Below the pieces are notes generated by a model, which searched no databases, was not told where the DNA came from, and saw nothing but the letters and a program-made list of their open reading frames with translations. From a virus, in IMG/VR virus record IMGVR_UViG_3300009034_000102, positions 1 to 40,923 of that record: 40,923 nt of DNA; one strand, written 5' to 3'. Below are positions 2,150 to 35,960 of this stretch, piece after piece (the stretch's first letter is position 1; each line of letters opens with the position of its first letter). The translations under genes and the position numbers were made by a program.

Positions 2150-2298
2150 TCACCTCTTAGCCGCCGAGGTCTCCAAGGCCTGCTCAAGACTAATTGGGGG
2201 CAGCCCCAGAAACCCCGACGGCCACTCTTAGCAGTGAAATAGATAGTGCTTGTGCGTAGCAGGCCTTTGGTTACAGGGGCAGGGGTTATCTCTATCAT
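2146..2298 (-). CDS. Possible overlapping 50-residue ORF
   Basis: An alternative frame begins inside the 3' end of the gene at 2228-2515 and runs to a TGA that overlaps the next start as ATGA. That overlap and its filling of a 78-base gap favour it. The arginine-rich tail and lack of a good ribosome site argue against. It may be chance. Confidence 0.3.
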   Translation of the reverse strand: MIEITPAPVTKGLLRTSTIYFTAKSGRRGFWGCPQLVLSRPWRPRRLRGE

Positions 2299-2515
2299 CA
2301 CTGAACCTTTCACCTTCGGCAAACACCCATCCCCCAGCCAGGCCAGTGATAACCGCTGCCATCCGTTCCTTGACTTCTTCAAGGGGCAGAGACGAGCACA
2401 CTGATGCATTGCCTAACCCCTCTGCGTAGATGATAAAGTCATCATCCTCTGCCTTGGATGCCTTGATTGCTTCCTCTAATGCTTCAGGCGAACCATATCC
2501 TAGAAAGTTACTCAT
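2228..2515 (-). CDS. Hypothetical acidic protein
   Basis: The product is 95 residues, beginning MSNFLGYGSPEALEEAIKAS after AGGAGAAACA. A helical acidic N-terminal half is followed by a Cys/His tail (PCPCNQ ... HKHYLFHC) that might hold zinc. No family recognised. Confidence 0.66.
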   Translation of the reverse strand: MSNFLGYGSPEALEEAIKASKAEDDDFIIYAEGLGNASVCSSLPLEEVKERMAAVITGLAGGWVFAEGERFSDDRDNPCPCNQRPATHKHYLFHC

Positions 2516-2524
2516 TGTTTCTCC

Positions 2525-2620
2525 TCATTTCTTCCTCAACCACCACAGCAGAAAGCCATAGAGGGCAAGAAGAACTGTCGCACCAGCGATCATCAGAACC
2601 GCTAACTTCTCAAGATTCAT
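2525..2620 (-). CDS. 31-residue single-span membrane peptide
   Basis: A GAGGTGAAGG site precedes an ATG opening a short acidic/basic N-terminus, one hydrophobic span (VLMIAGATVLLALYGFLLWW) and a basic end RKK. The positive-inside pattern predicts N-out, C-in. It lies between two early genes in the same direction. Possible roles include inner-membrane modulation of the host; none is shown. Confidence 0.6.
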   Translation of the reverse strand: MNLEKLAVLMIAGATVLLALYGFLLWWLRKK

Positions 2621-2623
2621 CCT

Positions 2624-2887
2624 TCACCTCGTGAGCCCTTCTTGGAAGGGTGAAGGATCATCGGTATCCTCTAAAAAGATTACCAAGCCTCTCTTGTTCT
2701 CCACTTCTAGCCTGAGGAAGGGGTGGTCAGTTGGAACTTGAACTCCTGGTATAATCCATACAGTTGGGCATTTGGCCTTCAGCGCCTCCAAGACGGCGTC
2801 AGCGCCAGCCTCATAAGCAGTTCGGTGCATACCCGCATAATAACTAGGTATCGACCACCCCTTGGGTCTCCATCCTTGCTTAGTCAA
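2624..2887 (-). CDS. Hypothetical protein, TTG start
   Basis: The 87-residue frame has no upstream ATG; the start used here is TTG at 2887 behind AAAGGA. It contains GMHRTAYEAGADAVLEALK, a helix seen in many small phage proteins of unknown role, followed by a beta-rich half. The gene overlaps the end of the 43-residue gene before it by eight bases. Confidence 0.6.
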   Translation of the reverse strand: MTKQGWRPKGWSIPSYYAGMHRTAYEAGADAVLEALKAKCPTVWIIPGVQVPTDHPFLRLEVENKRGLVIFLEDTDDPSPFQEGLTR

Positions 2888-3011
2888 AGTAGCACCATCC
2901 TTTCAGGAGTAGCATAAGAAAGCGCCATAGCCTTTTGTGAAGAGGGAAAAGAAGTTCAACCTTTATTCGACCCTGACGGAACTTATATTGTGTATACACC
3001 AAGTCGCTCAC
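2880..3011 (-). CDS. 43-residue basic/aromatic peptide
   Basis: The GTG start overlaps the preceding stop as GTGA, and the frame runs to a stop just inside the next gene, filling the whole gap. The product is rich in Arg, Phe, Leu and Trp (HKRLWRFLMLLLKGWCYF), suggesting an amphipathic membrane-active helix. Existence is supported by spacing rather than homology. Confidence 0.5.
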   Translation of the reverse strand: MSDLVYTQYKFRQGRIKVELLFPLHKRLWRFLMLLLKGWCYFD

Positions 3012-3265
3012 AGCCCAGCCTCCTGCCTGAAGGCTTGCCAGCATAAATTACAATGATGTCGCAAGCGTGGAACAGGGTAATGATTGCAGACTTCCATGCC
3101 CCACTCCGCTATCTTGCGGGCTTGGGCCTGGGCACCATCAGCCCACTCTTCGGCCAGTTGGTTTATCATATGTTTGGGAGGCATCTTCAATCCGTGCTTC
3201 GCCTCCAATTCCAACATACGTTCATACATACCATCCCACGGGCTCTCAACCTTCCAGTCGCTCAT
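3008..3265 (-). CDS. Small protein with EWGxExC...CNxCWQAF zinc motif
   Basis: The 85-residue protein ends with EWGMEVC, a histidine-rich stretch and CNLCWQAF. The same C-terminal pattern occurs in the gene at 7154-7384, so the two are paralogues with different N-termini. Three or more Cys/His ligands suggest a zinc knuckle. The start sits in a GAGGAGGCCAA translation-initiation cassette shared with several neighbours. Confidence 0.72.
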   Translation of the reverse strand: MSDWKVESPWDGMYERMLELEAKHGLKMPPKHMINQLAEEWADGAQAQARKIAEWGMEVCNHYPVPRLRHHCNLCWQAFRQEAGL

Positions 3266-3390
3266 TTGGCCTCCTCAATTTCTAAGCCAAACCACCGACA
3301 CCCATGATTCCACTTGTAGACAAGCCAAGCCCAAAAGCTCTTGCACTGCCAAGGAAAAGAGTAGCTAATGTTGTATCCTAAAACCTTCAT
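3262..3390 (-). CDS. 42-residue aromatic-rich peptide
   Basis: ATG 3390 is chosen because GGGAGGCAAGAAA precedes it, rather than farther upstream. The product is Trp/Tyr-rich and ends EIEEAK, whose codons double as the ribosome site of the next gene (ATGA overlap). No transmembrane span is obvious. Unknown function. Confidence 0.58.
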   Translation of the reverse strand: MKVLGYNISYSFPWQCKSFWAWLVYKWNHGCRWFGLEIEEAK

Positions 3391-3677
3391 TTTCTTGCCT
3401 CCCTGAACCAGCCATCTTTCTGTATAGCCTCTTTCGTTGCGCATATTGCTTCAAACTCGCCCTCATAACTATGCGGGTCAGGGCTAGGCGGTTCCGCCCC
3501 CAAGTCCGCCACCTTCAGGGCGGGGATGTCTCTTAACAATCTTTGTGCCCTAGCTAAGAACATTGGTTTCATATCAGCAGCCCATAAAATTGCCTTGTCC
3601 CACCAATCTTCACCAAAGCCATAATGCTGGGAGAGTTTCCTTGCTATTTCCTCAATTACCTGTTCCCTTATCGACAT
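3387..3677 (-). CDS. Hypothetical helical protein
   Basis: The product is 96 residues from ATG 3677 behind AGGAGGCC. Predicted mostly alpha-helical with an aromatic patch (EDWWDKAILWAADMKPMF). It ends at an ATGA overlap with the next small gene. No family recognised. Confidence 0.64.
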   Translation of the reverse strand: MSIREQVIEEIARKLSQHYGFGEDWWDKAILWAADMKPMFLARAQRLLRDIPALKVADLGAEPPSPDPHSYEGEFEAICATKEAIQKDGWFREARK

Positions 3678-11636: not shown

Positions 11637-11836
11637 CGATTACACAGAAAGGGGGTAGGGGAAGCTAAACAGGGGGGATAACCCTATCCGAAGCTAGCGA
11701 GGACAACAAGTGATCATCTTCCCTGCTAGAATACGGTTTATGACACGCTTCCCAATTCAAAATGCTACTTTCCAATCTATTTTCTGGCCTCCGAGGGAAT
11801 ATAACCAGTTGGCGAAAACAGGCAGGGCAGGTTGCG

Positions 11837-12757
11837 ATGAGGCAAGATAACTCTCTTACTCTTGAGCAGGTCTTTGTGCTCTATGGTCAGACGCTCTATA
11901 TTGAGGGGAAATCGCACTATACGATTGAGAGATTCTATTGTAAACATATCACCAACTTTGCAAAGTTCGTCGGAGCTAGCATACCCATCAATCAAATTAG
12001 CACTAACCTCTTACGTAACTTCCTCTCCGAACTCGCGAGCGGGCGTATAACCAACCACCCTGGTGGGCCAGCACGCAACCATGCTTACCATAGGACTTTC
12101 CGAGCCTTCTTCAACTGGATGGTCAGAGAGGGCTATCTTGAGAAAAGCCCCATGACCAACATAAGGCCGCCCAAGCTGCCAAAGATGATGATTGTTGTTT
12201 TCGCCAATGAGGATATTGCTACTCTGCTGAGATGCTGTAACGGCAGGTCGTTTATAGACGTACGGAATAAGGCTATCGTGCTTGTGTTGCTGGATTCGGG
12301 ATTGCGGGAGAGTGAATTCCTTGCCATGAAGCCTGAAGATATAGAGATGGATAACGGCGAGATAAAAGTTTGGGGAAAGGGCAGCAAGGAAAGAGTAGTG
12401 CGGATTGGCAGCAAGGCACGCAAAGCCTTGCTGCGATACTGGTCTGTCAGGGGTAGTGAAAAGGGGGCATTGTGGTTGTCTGCTGACGGCAAGCCCATCA
12501 CTGACTCTGGGTTGTACAAGGTATTCCAAAGACTCGGGAAGGCTGCTGGTATACATAGTGTACGCTGTTCTCCTCATACCTGTCGCCATACGTGGGCTAC
12601 TCGTCTGCTAGACGGCGGCGCAAATATTCGGGATCTCCAAACTCTTGGGGGCTGGGCCACGTTGGAGATGGTTTTGCGCTATGCCCAGAAGCGGGATTCT
12701 GCTGTTGCTCTTCGTGCTCACGAGAAGTATTCTCCGATGGACAGGCTGCTGAGGTAA
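11837..12757 (+). CDS. int: Tyrosine recombinase / phage integrase
   Basis: From ATG 11837 the product is 306 residues (an upstream ATG at 11762 would give 331). A SAM-like core-binding domain (SLTLEQVFVLYGQTLYIEGKS) is followed by the catalytic domain: Arg in SGLRESE (157), Lys in WGKGSKER, HTCRH (His247, Arg250), Trp273 in GGWATLE where many relatives have His, and the nucleophile Tyr282 in VLRYAQ. All residues needed for XerD-like integration are present. It defines the phage as temperate. The gene stands alone on the plus strand next to the repressor block; no attP core could be identified by eye. Confidence 0.93.
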   Translation: MRQDNSLTLEQVFVLYGQTLYIEGKSHYTIERFYCKHITNFAKFVGASIPINQISTNLLRNFLSELASGRITNHPGGPARNHAYHRTFRAFFNWMVREGYLEKSPMTNIRPPKLPKMMIVVFANEDIATLLRCCNGRSFIDVRNKAIVLVLLDSGLRESEFLAMKPEDIEMDNGEIKVWGKGSKERVVRIGSKARKALLRYWSVRGSEKGALWLSADGKPITDSGLYKVFQRLGKAAGIHSVRCSPHTCRHTWATRLLDGGANIRDLQTLGGWATLEMVLRYAQKRDSAVALRAHEKYSPMDRLLR

Positions 12758-23092: not shown

Positions 23093-24109
23093 TCAGCTCA
23101 CTGTCCAAACTGCGTTGCTGATGCCAGAATACTTGGCGCAACTGATGATGCTTTGCAGCATTATCGCTGGATACCACTTAATCCTGACCCTCTCGGCGTC
23201 CTTGGTCTCCAGCTTGCCCAGCCTGTCAACCGTGATCGGCAGCGACTGGATACCGCAGAGAGCCTCTGGCGCAAAGCGCACGACGAAGATGGTAGTACCG
23301 TTGTCATCATTAGCCAGCGCTCGGCCATCGGTGTAGTCATGCCCGTAGGCTGCATTGCCAGGACCAGCGGCAGCGTCCTCATAGTTGGTGTTGTCGTCGC
23401 AGGACTCATCGTCGCTGAGCCTGTCAGACACAGCTATGGGGGTGTCCAGAACGGATTGAACCGTCTTGCCCATGTGCTCGGTCTTGGTGATTCCACCAAC
23501 GCCGTTCAGGTATTCGTTCATCCTTCTGCGCTGCTGCTTGGTCATGATAATCAGGTCTGGCTTGCCATTCTTGACCGAATCTATGACCGCCTCCAGCTCG
23601 AGCATACTGGCTGCCGCTGGAGTGTTCTCACTGGAATCATTGACCGCCCATGAGTTGCAGTACGGGCTGGTGGTCGCACGAATCAGGTAGTGGAGTCCGT
23701 CAAATGCCTTGGCGTCATCTCCACCGCCAGTTTTGTAGCCGTAGTAAAGCGACTTCTTGAACTCTTCCTTAATCGCCTTGGTCTTGGCTGCAATCTGCTC
23801 AGTCATGAGGTCTTGCAGATTTGACCGAGTGGCTTTCAGGAAGTTGTCCACGTCAGCATCGCCGCCCAGAATGGTCGTGACTGCGGTGTGCTGCGTAACG
23901 ACGGAAGTTGACTCTACCCAAGTATCGCCGACGGCGTAGAAGCCAGCACCTGACATCGTTGTCTCTACATCGTAGGTCAAGCCATTACCAACAATATCCT
24001 TAAACTGGAGCCGTTCCAGAACTGGGTCGTTATAGACCAGCAGCTCGATAACTCCCTTCTGCAAGACATCGTTGGAGTATTTGGCTGCCTCGACAAGTGT
24101 CAAAGCCAC
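23093..24109 (-). CDS. Major capsid protein, HK97-type
   Basis: 338 residues. MALTLVEAAKYSNDVLQKGV, GLTYDVETTMSGAGFYAVGD and the ILGGDADVDNFLKAT segment match a widespread family of phage major capsid proteins with the HK97 fold; residues 95-115 form the long spine helix and 170-200 the A-domain start. The GTG start is preceded by AGGAGGTAAAAGCAA. It follows the scaffold gene and precedes the decoration gene, the normal order. No obvious protease is encoded, so maturation may not need cleavage. Confidence 0.88.
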   Translation of the reverse strand: MALTLVEAAKYSNDVLQKGVIELLVYNDPVLERLQFKDIVGNGLTYDVETTMSGAGFYAVGDTWVESTSVVTQHTAVTTILGGDADVDNFLKATRSNLQDLMTEQIAAKTKAIKEEFKKSLYYGYKTGGGDDAKAFDGLHYLIRATTSPYCNSWAVNDSSENTPAAASMLELEAVIDSVKNGKPDLIIMTKQQRRRMNEYLNGVGGITKTEHMGKTVQSVLDTPIAVSDRLSDDESCDDNTNYEDAAAGPGNAAYGHDYTDGRALANDDNGTTIFVVRFAPEALCGIQSLPITVDRLGKLETKDAERVRIKWYPAIMLQSIISCAKYSGISNAVWTVS

Positions 24110-29068: not shown

Positions 29069-30829
29069 CTATGGGCCTACCACCCCTGGAGGGGCACCTG
29101 CCATCGGCGGGCCACCCACCGGCCCGCCTCCAGGCGGTGCTCCTTGCCCTTGAGGCGGTTGACCGCTCAACGTAGCTATCAAAGCCTCTGCTAGCTGGGG
29201 TTGCCCGCTGGCCATCAAGGCTTGAACGACCGCCTCAATCAGTTCGGGTGGTAGTTGAGGCGCTTGCTGCCCCTGCTGTGGCCCAAGCATGGCAAGTACC
29301 TCTTGTGCTAATTCAGGCTTGCCCCTTTCCTGGAGAGCACGGGCGATCTGCCTAACCTGAATCGGCGGCAACGACTCCCCCCTCTCTGCCAGAACCTTCT
29401 CCTTCTCCGCAGCGGGGTCTGGGAGTTGCAAGTAGTCATCCCTAGCAGTGTCCATCGACACTAGAGCTTCACCCATAGCGTTGGGGTCGGTCGCAGCCTT
29501 CGCCATAAATATCTCTCTCTCCCTATCCCTGGGCATCCTCGGCTCGCACTTCACCGATATGTGCCAGCTAGGGTCAATCTCAGTAGGCTTGACTTTTTGC
29601 TGAAAGAACTGACCATTCGGCTTGTAGCCTTTCAGATCGACAGCCTTCATCCCCTTCTGCGCATACTGGCTCAAAAGTTCTTCGCACAACCAGGTATAGC
29701 CTTCAGCAAGCCCACCAGACCTCGGGTTGTAAACAGACTTAGTTTGATCTAAGCGGATACTCAAAGCTACGCCGGTCTCGGCTGCTCGTGTCCCGCCGTG
29801 CGCTAGAGGATAGGGAAGGGTGCTCTGCTCTTTGTCCTCGCTAATAACGCCCGCAATCATCCCAGTGGAGGCTGGGGGCTGTGGCATTTCAAGGGGTTTC
29901 AGAATGTCGCCTTTCTTTATCGGTATTATCTTGAAAGTCTGATAGGGATCACCCTCAACGCCCGTCTCCCCGTCCTCGGATTCATAAACCAATGACCCTA
30001 TCCTTGCCCGCTCGTGTATGTCCATGAGTTCGGATATATGCTTGTTGAAAGGCTTATACAAATTGCGGGAGGCGGCCCACACCGAGTCGCCCTGGTATTC
30101 TATCGTGGAGCTGAAGTCCTTGGTCTGAATCGTGGGCATGGAACCTATCGAGCCGATATTCACAGGCACATGGCCAATGTTATGTTTCGTTGGCTTCTTC
30201 GCAAAATCGTTCTTGATTACAACGGAGTTCTTCTCTTCGTCCCAGAAGTCGATAAGCTCCGCATCCTTGCCGCTAATTGTAATGCCATACTCCGCCTGAA
30301 TCTGCGCCTTGGTCACCTTGCGCTTGTACGCTGCCCACAGCAGACCGTTAGGCCCAGTCTCCCAAGTTACATGAAGAGGATCCCACGGTAGAACATCAAA
30401 GACCGTCTCATCTTTTGATGCATACACCAGCGCTCTCAGAGCATACCACCCCCTGAGAGCTATGAAGAAACCCAACCCCTCACGCAGCGATGGTTCCCCT
30501 CGTAACCTCAGCCTGCGGTCAATCGCCGCCAGTGCGCCGAACAGGTAGAGTTCACCTATTGATGCTGCGTCTGTCTGCTTATCTGTTGCCTTCTCAGGGA
30601 GTTCTATCTGGATAGTTAGCTGTGCTCTGTTCAACCCATCGAGAACCTTGTCAAAGAAGTTCCTCGGTGCTGACGATGTGTAGGATTGATACCCCTTCTT
30701 GGCCTCGTATGGTGTCAGACAGAACAGGTCAAAGTCCTCCTCCATCCTGTCTCGGAGGGCCGTAAAGCCAGTCTCGCCCTCTTTCTCTGCTACAAGCTTG
30801 GTGATTTCTGCTGCCGTATCAAAACTCAT
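29069..30829 (-). CDS. Portal protein
   Basis: 586 residues immediately after the large terminase. The body (about 1-470) has the alternating helix/strand pattern of phage portals, with WDPLHVTWETGPNGLLWAAY and KDKEQSTLPYPLA-like surface segments and the long ISELMDIHERARIGS helix. The last 110 residues are Pro/Gly/Gln-rich repeats (PPQGQGAPPGGGPVGGPP), an unusually disordered tail. It would form the dodecameric ring for DNA entry. Position is the main support beyond composition. Confidence 0.78.
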   Translation of the reverse strand: MSFDTAAEITKLVAEKEGETGFTALRDRMEEDFDLFCLTPYEAKKGYQSYTSSAPRNFFDKVLDGLNRAQLTIQIELPEKATDKQTDAASIGELYLFGALAAIDRRLRLRGEPSLREGLGFFIALRGWYALRALVYASKDETVFDVLPWDPLHVTWETGPNGLLWAAYKRKVTKAQIQAEYGITISGKDAELIDFWDEEKNSVVIKNDFAKKPTKHNIGHVPVNIGSIGSMPTIQTKDFSSTIEYQGDSVWAASRNLYKPFNKHISELMDIHERARIGSLVYESEDGETGVEGDPYQTFKIIPIKKGDILKPLEMPQPPASTGMIAGVISEDKEQSTLPYPLAHGGTRAAETGVALSIRLDQTKSVYNPRSGGLAEGYTWLCEELLSQYAQKGMKAVDLKGYKPNGQFFQQKVKPTEIDPSWHISVKCEPRMPRDREREIFMAKAATDPNAMGEALVSMDTARDDYLQLPDPAAEKEKVLAERGESLPPIQVRQIARALQERGKPELAQEVLAMLGPQQGQQAPQLPPELIEAVVQALMASGQPQLAEALIATLSGQPPQGQGAPPGGGPVGGPPMAGAPPGVVGP

Positions 30830-30847: not shown

Positions 30848-32098
30848 CTAACTCCCTGGCCGAATTGTTTGTACTACTGCGTTGCGCCGTTGCACTACTG
30901 TCTCAGGTGTAAAGTCGCTCAGGATATACCTCTCGGCGTCCATGAGATGGAACCTGGCCTTGCTCTCAATCTCGTCCGTTATCTGTCCGTCTCGCTTCTT
31001 GTAGATGTAACTCAGCTTCTCTCGCAGATAGTTGGTCAAATCATCGAACACGAACAGCTTATTGAGCTTATGCAACCCGAACACTCGCTGTATGCCCGCT
31101 GCAACGTCTCTCAGCTTGGGCTCAGAGATAGGCCAGCCTTGCGAAGTATACCCTTGCCTTATCTCGTCCTCTTGATGACTCCCACCAGCACGCTTGATAA
31201 CATTTCTCCCTGCTGTAATCTCCTTGAACTGCTGCACATGCTCGTAGATGCCTCTCCCAGCACCAGGGAAATACTCTTGCCATGCATAGAAGTATCCTGT
31301 TGCGGGGTCCTGGGCATAGAACATAGCCGCAGGATTTGCCCCACCAAAGTCATGCCCGACATAGATCAACCATTCCTTGGGTATCTCAAAGCGTTTTACC
31401 AAGCAGACCTTCTCATCAAAGCTGGAGTACACCAACCCCTCAAGACCTGTCCACTTGCCCAAGACATATCGCTCGTAGTAAACCCCAGTGTATTCGCCTA
31501 GCCTCTCCTTATAGTCCTCTGGCAGCTCAGGATTCTCCAATGTAGAGGCTTCAAACACCTCTCCCTGCCTCTCGGCGAAGAACATCCTGTGCAGGTAGTG
31601 AGCAGGGGGACCGGGGTTTGTGGCTGCAAATATCTGATGCAACACATTGGGAAGCCTCAAGCGCCCTGCCAGCATCCTCCAGTCGTCTTCCGTGCTCTCT
31701 ATGGCCTCGTCTATGCCTACCCACCCCAACTCTAACGAACCGAGCTTGAGGGGATCATCCAATCCACCGAACACAATCCCAGAACCGTTATGCAGCCTTA
31801 CCAGCCCCTCAGTCTTGTTGTACTCGGCTACCAGCTCACCAGGGCATACCTGCTCCCGCCATGTCCGAATTGTGGTGTGTGTCATCGAGGCCCTGGTCTT
31901 CCGACACAGCAGTCCGAAGTTCCCAGGATAGTCCAGAGACAATTTCAGCGCCTTTGTTGTCAAGGCAACGGTCTTCCCACTCCCGAAAGCCCCAGAGAAT
32001 AGCACCTGGGGCGCTGAGGAGGCCACGAAGCCCCCTTGAGAGGGGTTGATAGGATTGAAGGTTAGCTCAACCTCGGGTGCCTCTATTAGCTGTGTCAT
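30848..32098 (-). CDS. terL: Terminase large subunit
   Basis: 416 residues. Walker A GAFGSGKT (36-43), Walker B LGWVGIDEA (Asp130, Glu131), coupling motif FAATNP (about 157-162), and nuclease-domain first acidic residue in YVGHDFGG (Asp250), with further acids in VFDDL and a C-terminal HLMDAERY region. It resembles PBSX-type TerL. It drives DNA into the procapsid through the portal and cuts concatemers. Packaging strategy (cos or pac) is not fixed by the motifs. Confidence 0.94.
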   Translation of the reverse strand: MTQLIEAPEVELTFNPINPSQGGFVASSAPQVLFSGAFGSGKTVALTTKALKLSLDYPGNFGLLCRKTRASMTHTTIRTWREQVCPGELVAEYNKTEGLVRLHNGSGIVFGGLDDPLKLGSLELGWVGIDEAIESTEDDWRMLAGRLRLPNVLHQIFAATNPGPPAHYLHRMFFAERQGEVFEASTLENPELPEDYKERLGEYTGVYYERYVLGKWTGLEGLVYSSFDEKVCLVKRFEIPKEWLIYVGHDFGGANPAAMFYAQDPATGYFYAWQEYFPGAGRGIYEHVQQFKEITAGRNVIKRAGGSHQEDEIRQGYTSQGWPISEPKLRDVAAGIQRVFGLHKLNKLFVFDDLTNYLREKLSYIYKKRDGQITDEIESKARFHLMDAERYILSDFTPETVVQRRNAVVQTIRPGS

Positions 32099-32323: not shown

Positions 32324-32641
32324 TCATCTGGTGAAGGACGCAGCCTGCACACCGATCACCCTGCCAATGTCTCCCATTGACAGCTCACCAAACCACACCT
32401 CGTCGGCATACTTGCCCAGGCTGCCAGCTATTCTCTGGAGCTTCTCAAGGTTAGGCATCTTGCTGTTGCTCTCCCGGGAGATGAAGTCCTTCACCACCTG
32501 CCACTCAGAAGGCAACGGCGTTACATCAGGCGTTACAACCACACTGGGCGTTACATAGTTCAGCGTTACATCTTTCTTGGCTCTGTAACGCTTTACACGC
32601 TCTCTCGTGGCCTCTCGCTTGGCTTCCTTACTCTGTGGCAT
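32324..32641 (-). CDS. Small DNA-binding packaging protein candidate
   Basis: 105 residues: basic N-terminus MPQSKEAKREATRERVKRYR, a Val-Thr-Pro repeat region and a C-terminal helical domain LEKLQRIAGSLGKYADEVWF. The basic helix resembles bZIP-like or terminase-small N-termini. The Val-Thr repeats arise from the GCGTTACA DNA repeats in this gene (32518-32591). Could be the terminase small subunit or a partner of it. Confidence 0.55.
   Translation of the reverse strand: MPQSKEAKREATRERVKRYRAKKDVTLNYVTPSVVVTPDVTPLPSEWQVVKDFISRESNSKMPNLEKLQRIAGSLGKYADEVWFGELSMGDIGRVIGVQAASFTR
32518..32591. repeat. GCGTTACA repeat cluster, candidate packaging or operator site
   Basis: Four direct copies of GCGTTACA at 32518-32525, 32530-32537, 32548-32555 and 32563-32570, plus one inverted copy TGTAACGC at 32584-32591. 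The spacings are not multiples of a fixed codon unit, so protein repetition alone does not explain all copies. Small-terminase recognition sites often lie within or beside their own gene. Confidence 0.5.
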
Positions 32642-32972
32642 CTTTCTCCTCAGCTTTCATACCTGCATACCCCTTCCCAATAATAAACGTCACCTTCCCC
32701 TGCATCTTCACATCAGCCTGAACAGGGAGAGGCATTCGCCCTTCTAAGCGGTCCTGAAGATCACGGCGAGCCTCGGTTTTCCCTTCAATAGCTTGAGCAA
32801 GCCACCTCTCCACTATCTCCTGAGCCCTCTCTGGCTTCTGCTCTAGCATGGCCTTGGCCAGCGAGGTCAGGGAAAGCTCCTTCTTGGGCCGGCCAGCAGG
32901 ATTCGCATTATTCCCAGGCAGGAAACGACCATCTGGCCCTCGATTTACCGCCGTTTTATTCGGTTCAGTCAC
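32628..32972 (-). CDS. Terminase small subunit-like protein
   Basis: 114 residues with N-terminal GPDGRFLPGNNANPAGRPKK, the DUF5681-type signature seen at the start of many small terminase-associated proteins, followed by helices (LTSLAKAMLEQKPERAQEIV) and a beta end VTFIIGKGYAG. GTG start overlaps the SpeD stop as GTGA. Likely recognises phage DNA for TerL; the neighbouring 105-residue protein is an alternative. Confidence 0.6.
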   Translation of the reverse strand: MTEPNKTAVNRGPDGRFLPGNNANPAGRPKKELSLTSLAKAMLEQKPERAQEIVERWLAQAIEGKTEARRDLQDRLEGRMPLPVQADVKMQGKVTFIIGKGYAGMKAEEKDATE

Positions 32973-33328
32973 TTTAGTCCCATCCTCTTGATATACTGAG
33001 TCTGCATAGCTTCGGGTTTGAAGAGTTCTGTTATGTATTCCACAACCTTCATCGTACTAAAATCCCTGCACGAGAATACCCCGATGTACGCCCGCTCATA
33101 CTCAGGCCACGTATGTATATCAATCCCGCTCTCAGCGATAATGACATTTCCACTTACGCCGGCCTCATGACCGTTCTTCTCAGGCGGTGGATCATACTTC
33201 ACCACTTGGGGCACGGTGATCTTCTGCATCCCCATGAGGACAGGCAGCTCGTCCAACATCCGATAGACAGCCTCCACGCTGGACAGAGCAGGAGACGAGC
33301 TTATGAGGTCGACTACGACATGCTTCAC
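32969..33328 (-). CDS. speD: S-adenosylmethionine decarboxylase (SpeD-type, pyruvoyl)
   Basis: 119 residues, the usual length of one prokaryotic SpeD chain. The processing site GVSGNVIIAESGIDIHTWPE has Glu66-Ser67, where self-cleavage makes the pyruvoyl group. His72 and Cys87 (YIGVFSC) fall at the exact spacings of the catalytic His and Cys in characterised bacterial enzymes. It would decarboxylate S-adenosylmethionine for spermidine synthesis, though relatives have been reported that act on ornithine or arginine. GTG start with GGAG eight bases upstream. Its stop overlaps the start of the packaging gene (GTGA), tying polyamine supply to DNA packaging. No spermidine synthase gene is seen. Confidence 0.87.
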   Translation of the reverse strand: MKHVVVDLISSSPALSSVEAVYRMLDELPVLMGMQKITVPQVVKYDPPPEKNGHEAGVSGNVIIAESGIDIHTWPEYERAYIGVFSCRDFSTMKVVEYITELFKPEAMQTQYIKRMGLK

Positions 33329-33385
33329 CGTCTCTACTCCTCATAAGTCACCGTCCCTTCTTCATGTTATTTTCCTGACATTTTC

Positions 33386-34726: not shown

Positions 34727-35119
34727 TCACCGCTCCACAATCAAATGCCGAATATCGGCTAAGTTGATGTAAGCCGCATAAGTAGAACCATCCGTGTTAG
34801 CCCTTTGCTCAAAATTGCCAAGTCCAAGACACTCTCGAATGTCCGCCATCCGACAGATAACAACCGCATCAGTAAACTCTTGAACATAAAACGAGGCTGT
34901 TGCCTCACCATCTATTATTTTCTGGCATTCGGTTTTGGTGCCGCTGTTCCTTCGCAAGCGTATAGAAATCTGCCCGTATTTACTAATCGGAATGCGCCGC
35001 TTCCGCCATGCAAAGGCAGTATTGCCAACCCAAATATCAGCTACTTGCTTTTGGTCTTCCGAGTTACTAGACTTTCTGCCATTCACATCGCCAAAGGCGA
35101 AATCATCTTGAAAGGACAT
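34727..35119 (-). CDS. Hypothetical protein next to methyltransferase
   Basis: 130 residues: DIWVGNTAFAWRKRRIPISK and IDGEATASFYVQEFTDAVVI give an alpha/beta layout that could be a small nuclease, but no catalytic signature can be assigned. It overlaps the methyltransferase end by 17 bases, so they are co-translated. A restriction-like partner to the methyltransferase is only a possibility. Confidence 0.62.
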   Translation of the reverse strand: MSFQDDFAFGDVNGRKSSNSEDQKQVADIWVGNTAFAWRKRRIPISKYGQISIRLRRNSGTKTECQKIIDGEATASFYVQEFTDAVVICRMADIRECLGLGNFEQRANTDGSTYAAYINLADIRHLIVER

Positions 35120-35960
35120 TGAATTTGCCCTTTTCTAACCCCCAACCCTCAAAGCCATGCCTATCCTCTCGACTGAACAGGTCAAGCCTCGGCTCAGGAC
35201 TCACAACCCGTACAAGGTCATAGAACTCATCGGGTTTTCTGGAATGCTCTTTGACCTTCCCGTCGAAGTCCAGCCGACGCCCCAACTCAAGCAGTTTTAG
35301 ATTCCCAATCCGTCCAAAGAGACAATGCTCTGTTGAATACATCCAGCTATAGGGTGTGAAACCAACATTCTTTCTCCAAGTTAGCAAGCATTCGTAGTTC
35401 ACACCCCAAACATCAAACATCTGAAACGCATCGGGCACAAACCTGTGAGTAGCCCAGAGATAGATATGGCACCCGTCCTCGGCAACATTCTCGCTGAGGC
35501 GCTGGGCAACCTTGTCTTTTATCTGCTCTAGGGTCATAATGGTATAGTCTAGATTCGTTTGCTGTCTTGGCCGCACTTCACGCTCTATCTTTGCCATCGG
35601 CCAAGGCGGGTCAATAATGATAGTTCGGTAACGGCCTTCGGGTGGGGGAATATCACAAATTTGTGATATTCGTTTTGGCAGATAGTCAGGAAAGTATCTG
35701 TGTAACCAGTTATGACCAGTATTGACATGAACCCCTATATCTTCGCAATATGTCTCAAATGTCTTATCTGACCAGCGGCGTCCTATCTTCTTCTTTGAAT
35801 CCTCCGTTAGAAGTTCATGGGCTATCCGCAACTCAATAAGTGCTTCTGCGCCCTTTTCCCTAACTTCCTTGAATAGATTCCTGCACCTACCAACAGATTC
35901 CTCATAATCCCATTCAGAAGGAATCTCAACCGCTTGCTCAACAACAACCAAATCTGCCAT
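35103..35960 (-). CDS. MT-A70-family DNA adenine N6-methyltransferase
   Basis: 285 residues. Residues 1-100 form a helical DNA-binding-like region (DKTFETYCEDIGVHVNTGHN). The catalytic domain begins RYRTIIIDPPWPMAK with the DPPW motif (117-120), continues YLWATHRFVPDAFQMFDVWG and ends with PEPRLDLFSREDRHGFEGWG, the SAM-pocket closure of MT-A70 enzymes. It would methylate adenine in phage DNA, for defence against host restriction or control of gene expression. A perfect palindrome (35649-35670) lies in the coding link between the two domains. Confidence 0.9.
   Translation of the reverse strand: MADLVVVEQAVEIPSEWDYEESVGRCRNLFKEVREKGAEALIELRIAHELLTEDSKKKIGRRWSDKTFETYCEDIGVHVNTGHNWLHRYFPDYLPKRISQICDIPPPEGRYRTIIIDPPWPMAKIEREVRPRQQTNLDYTIMTLEQIKDKVAQRLSENVAEDGCHIYLWATHRFVPDAFQMFDVWGVNYECLLTWRKNVGFTPYSWMYSTEHCLFGRIGNLKLLELGRRLDFDGKVKEHSRKPDEFYDLVRVVSPEPRLDLFSREDRHGFEGWGLEKGKFNVLSR
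35649..35670. repeat. Perfect 22-bp palindrome inside methyltransferase gene
   Basis: AATATCACAAA (35649-35659) is followed immediately by its exact complement TTTGTGATATT (35660-35670). It encodes the junction between the helical and catalytic domains. AT-rich palindromes of this length are typical of dimeric regulator sites and unusual in coding sequence. Confidence 0.6.

Follow-up and report, generated by a model that had tools for sequence, protein, structure and literature searches.

A divergent phage SpeD homologue with a non-canonical sequence profile heads a packaging operon

The window analysed here is the whole 40,923-nucleotide stretch of IMG/VR record IMGVR_UViG_3300009034_000102, a linear fragment. 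We found that positions 32628-33328 contain two genes on the minus strand: a homologue of the SpeD/AdoMetDC-fold pyruvoyl decarboxylases (32969..33328, 119 aa, GTG start), and a gene encoding a DUF5681 protein of 114 aa in the small-terminase position (32628..32972; PF18932, 35.3 bits). A ribosome-binding site, GAGGAG (33329..33345, minus strand), was read 8 nt upstream of the SpeD start codon. As the sequence-only reading had reported, the two genes overlap; the TGA stop of SpeD and the GTG start of the DUF5681 gene share the tetranucleotide GTGA (32969..32972, minus strand), an arrangement compatible with translational coupling. Further along the same strand lie an ORF of 105 aa that overlaps the DUF5681 gene by 14 nt and had no match in Pfam, PHROGs or NCBIfam (32324..32641), the terminase large subunit, TerL (30848..32098; PF04466, 2e-17; phrog_2, 1e-38), a probable portal protein (29069..30829), and, downstream in the same leftward block, a major capsid protein of the SU10 type (23093..24109; PF17236, phrog_212). 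The portal candidate carries no Pfam or PHROGs name; its assignment comes from its being a conserved gene directly after TerL, a place occupied by homologues in the related records L006, L008-L019 and L082. The block begins with SpeD, whose upstream neighbour, from 33469, is on the opposite strand. A search for sigma-70 promoters of the late operon showed no excess over shuffled sequences, and none was located upstream of SpeD. Elsewhere in the window, an MT-A70 type adenine methyltransferase is encoded at 35103-35960 and a tyrosine integrase at 11762-12757 (plus strand); given the integrase, the phage may be temperate.

The gene that follows SpeD had been described as small-terminase-like. 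Its Pfam family is DUF5681, no TerS family was present among its Pfam, PHROGs and NCBIfam matches, and PHROGs returned weak matches of unknown function only. The description agrees, however, with the gene order and with the C-terminus of the protein. In L007, whose TerL is 67% identical to that of the window, the gene directly before TerL also encodes a DUF5681 protein (41% identical to ours), and in L008 (TerL, 66%) a recognised TerS (phrog_51) occupies that place. The three proteins have in common a C-terminal tail of the IG[KR]GY type, IGKGY being shared with L008. Position and tail together suggest that the DUF5681 gene may encode the small terminase. One DUF5681 protein of a Salmonella phage has been found in virions (PMC8954984).

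The SpeD homologue matched Pfam AdoMet_dc (PF02675) with 81.7 bits (E 6e-23; cut-off 25), and the SAM decarboxylase families of PHROGs matched it as well. An AlphaFold2 model built on 40 homologues had a mean pLDDT of 95.1, and its five top PDB matches in Foldseek were all AdoMetDC from T. maritima or A. aeolicus, with a TM of about 0.8. The Pfam score, the model and the PDB matches indicate that the assignment is not due to chance. The earlier observation that the active-site residues are intact and correctly spaced was confirmed, since Ser67, His72 and Cys87 pair, in a gap-free alignment, with S63, H68 and C83 of the T. maritima enzyme. The spacing is 5 and 15 residues in both proteins, which puts the His and the Cys at +5 and +20 from the processing serine. 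These three residues are also the sole invariant columns in the 40-homologue alignment. We conclude that this is a real gene whose catalytic residues are under constraint, and that a genuine, divergent phage SpeD homologue heads a packaging operon. The predicted self-cleavage site is Glu66-Ser67.

Besides true AdoMetDCs, the SpeD homologues of phages and bacteria comprise enzymes that decarboxylate arginine (SpeDA) or ornithine (SpeDC), and arginine or ornithine decarboxylase activity has been proven for phage members (Li et al. 2023; PMC9992855, PMC10407285). Using homologues gathered from phages, viral contigs and CPR genomes, we obtained for the window protein 97.9 bits with the SpeDA-like profile, 55.8 with the canonical AdoMetDC profile and 52.0 with the SpeDC-like profile; the name SpeDA-like was given by gene context, and the set used contained no assayed arginine decarboxylase of the window branch. 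The non-canonical profile thus exceeds the canonical one by 42 bits, and leave-one-out controls cleanly separated these two classes, SpeDA-like and canonical. With the AdoMetDC equivalog TIGR03330 the protein reached 62.5 bits, under the curated cut-off of 75.65. According to these scores, the name S-adenosylmethionine decarboxylase, proposed by the sequence-only reading, is probably wrong.

The possibility of a changed substrate had been raised at the same time, together with a phylogeny including neofunctionalised relatives. In a tree of 114 rows, canonical SpeD was split from a superclade containing the window protein and the SpeDC rows. In a tree of 64 rows, canonical SpeD was separate (support 100/99) and the window protein grouped with L060, L082 and L129 (support 91/84). 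Both trees place it with non-canonical rows, on a long branch. However, joining it to canonical SpeD was not rejected by the AU test (p 0.216), and moving its subclade to canonical SpeD cost 1.16 log units (p 0.449). As these tests permit the canonical grouping, the sequence class of the protein appears well supported, whereas its branching position is not settled. The suggestion of a changed substrate was rightly made.

Identification as SpeDC was set aside as a first choice, given that only Tyr81 corresponds to the four diagnostic residues (Gln, Thr, Phe, Tyr; PMC10407285, Fig. 8), at whose positions, inferred here from the sequences, the window protein has Val62, Glu66, Thr73 and Tyr81. It keeps Pro75 of H72-T-W-P75-E (the presumed gamma position), the HTWPE proline that true AdoMetDCs are reported to have without exception (PMC10407285), but many non-canonical rows keep it too. 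The assayed arginine decarboxylase of a Pelagibacter phage lies on a separate branch, nearer SpeDC. The enzyme of Sinorhizobium phage phiN3 scores as SpeDC-like by profile yet is a proven AdoMetDC (PMC9992855), which indicates that the class does not fix the substrate.

We infer the substrate of the window protein from its class, and the gene context of other members is informative in this respect. In Microcystis phage MaAM05 the order is speH_2 (canonical), speH_1 (the window class), speE and speB. In the CPR genome G219 a class member is accompanied by genes of the arginase family and of the deoxyhypusine synthase type, with no speE over the cut-off; Li et al. tied this kind of combination to arginine decarboxylase. 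Since both represent agmatine-using pathways, an arginine decarboxylase is favoured. The statement that the phage lacks a spermidine synthase holds for the record, which has no match to PF01564 or to arginase/agmatinase (PF00491); likewise, none of 50 related viral records contains an arginase-family or spermidine-synthase gene over the cut-off. Solo SpeD genes are therefore the norm among these records.

From this evidence, we regard it as somewhat probable that the window protein decarboxylates arginine (or ornithine) by means of a pyruvoyl cofactor and supplies a pathway of the host. The chain would be cleaved at Glu66-Ser67, Ser67 would become the pyruvoyl cofactor, and His72 and Cys87 would act in processing and catalysis. 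The reaction would most likely be the conversion of L-arginine to agmatine (or of L-ornithine to putrescine) rather than the decarboxylation of AdoMet, and host enzymes would convert the product into putrescine, spermidine or homospermidine. Because SpeD heads the late block, which goes on to terminase, portal and capsid, we expect the enzyme to be synthesised while virions are assembled, its translation probably being coupled to that of the next gene.

A residue-level comparison leaves room for a true AdoMet decarboxylase whose product goes to a host spermidine synthase, which we consider rather unlikely. The window protein keeps HTWPE and GVSG as T. maritima AdoMetDC does, the AU tests leave the canonical grouping standing, and AdoMetDCs standing alone are frequent in phages and proven there, phiN3 being an example of a non-canonical sequence with this activity (PMC9992855). 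Besides the 42-bit deficit of the canonical profile and the missed TIGR03330 cut-off, it is opposed by FSCRDF, where canonical SpeD has FTCG, and by the missing HxFxPxG stretch. Speaking against the arginine/ornithine reading, Gly68 and Gly83 stand where most relatives keep conserved residues. The VDVFTC motif, in turn, has Gly in place of its Asp. Together with the long branch and the small divergent subclade in which Ser-Gly or Ser-Ala replaces Ser-His, the VDVFTC change would be in keeping with another substrate, or with a decarboxylase activity lost in favour of another role in the late operon; this seems unlikely, as the triad conserved in all 40 diverse homologues and the well-predicted fold argue for a working self-cleaving enzyme. 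The subclade comprises the window protein, L082, L060/L067/L139 and L129, and possibly L146, L165 and L166. A speculative extension, which we would not expect to hold, is that in this phage subclade with Ser-Gly/Ser-Ala and HTWPE the AdoMetDC fold has changed substrate once more, the gene being wired in several of the phages into the packaging or head operon so as to make a small cation just as DNA is packaged.

A role in depleting AdoMet, by which restriction-modification of the host would be weakened in the manner of phage SAM lyases, is very improbable. Phage SAM-degrading enzymes exist (PMC7877911), and the model has a weak fold likeness to a phage SAM lyase (TM about 0.4, E 0.06), but the phage's own MT-A70 methyltransferase would need AdoMet, the profile class points away from this substrate, and the gene belongs to the late block.

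The location of SpeD in other phages bears on its possible link with packaging. L007 and L008 have the packaging block, but SpeD is absent from that place, which indicates that it is accessory at this spot. Among the nearest phages by terminase (L005-L020) SpeD was not found; the records of L005 (identical to the window) and L006 (73%) start at TerL or immediately ahead of it and are uninformative here. A single-sequence scan for close relatives gave no match among viral contigs and, in Kaiserbacteria genomes, a single one that was weak and short. More distant homologues do occur in late regions. In L082 the order is SpeD-TerS-TerL-portal, and its TerL and portal are homologues of the window proteins; in L097 the SpeD stop overlaps the TerL start by ATGA; L091 shows TerL-SpeD-portal; and in L132 SpeD is about 2 kb from the terminase. 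In L129 SpeD is near a P22-type coat gene. In L060 (4947-5552) and L139 (2981-3589) SpeD is fused to a C-terminal DUF3310 and lies upstream of the head maturation protease gene, just after DNA methylase genes. On the other side, SpeD of L146 lies among tail genes, many other homologues are in tail, lysis or non-structural regions, and most copies in large phages are elsewhere. In an informal count, biased by fragment length and with TerL located by PF03237 and phrog_2 in only some of the 50 records, there was no enrichment of SpeD beside the terminase, the fraction being approximately that of a random slot near TerS-TerL-portal. Insertion of SpeD into late operons is recurrent, and a role in packaging is a hypothesis. 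The earlier proposal that polyamines are timed for packaging has only gene position in its favour; the predominance of homologues elsewhere and the blocks devoid of SpeD speak against it.

The survey also revealed other arrangements. L116 carries three tandem SpeD homologues (2298-3448), two SpeDC-like and one canonical. A canonical SpeD is directly followed by a SpeDC-like gene in viral contigs L089, L094, L095, L099, L100 and L135, and in L127 such a pair is followed by speE; these pairs likely represent an ornithine decarboxylase plus an AdoMet decarboxylase. CPR proteins of 437-472 aa (L037, L042, L044-L051) have a degenerate C-terminal SpeD domain with NSN or similar for ESH. In Croceibacter phage P2559S (L052), whose AdoMetDC has been assayed, speD (43987-44307) is one gene from the record end, and the terminase is at the start.

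For phage polyamine genes, the annotation SAM decarboxylase is often a misnomer. The sampled phage homologues found with the window profile are mostly non-canonical and stand alone, so proposals of a SAM-based boost of spermidine by phages should be checked. If the position in a packaging operon were shown to matter, genetics could be used to ask directly whether phages themselves supply the counter-ions of the DNA they package. SpeD homologues of phages, neofunctionalised forms included, were described in 2023, and in the literature searched we found no arrangement of phage SpeD genes together with terminase; what is new, to a modest degree, is the divergent subclade and where it is placed.

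Among known systems, the class 1b AdoMetDC of T. maritima (1TLU/1VR7/3IWB) resembles the window protein in fold, triad and spacing, length and HTWPE. The two are 26% identical, and the window protein differs in falling under the equivalog cut-off, in having FSCRDF instead of FTCG, in a longer loop in place of HxFxPxG, and in the Ser-Gly after the cleavage serine. With respect to SpeDA and SpeDC (Li et al. 2023, PMC10407285), it matches the SpeDA-like rows best and is likewise a solo gene without speE, but it differs in keeping the proline of true AdoMetDCs and in having just Tyr81 of the four SpeDC residues. The nearest proteins in the annotated phage collection are speH_1 of MaAM05 and a homologue in the 735-kb phage LR756501 (33-37% identity over 85-95%); both are large phages, and MaAM05 has a full polyamine cluster, whereas the window phage has none. 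L082 (IMGVR_UViG_3300028840_003151) shares with the window the SpeD-TerS-TerL-portal order and the AESG...HTWPEY motif; its SpeD is about 30% identical to that of the window, its TerS belongs to another family, and its genes abut without overlap.
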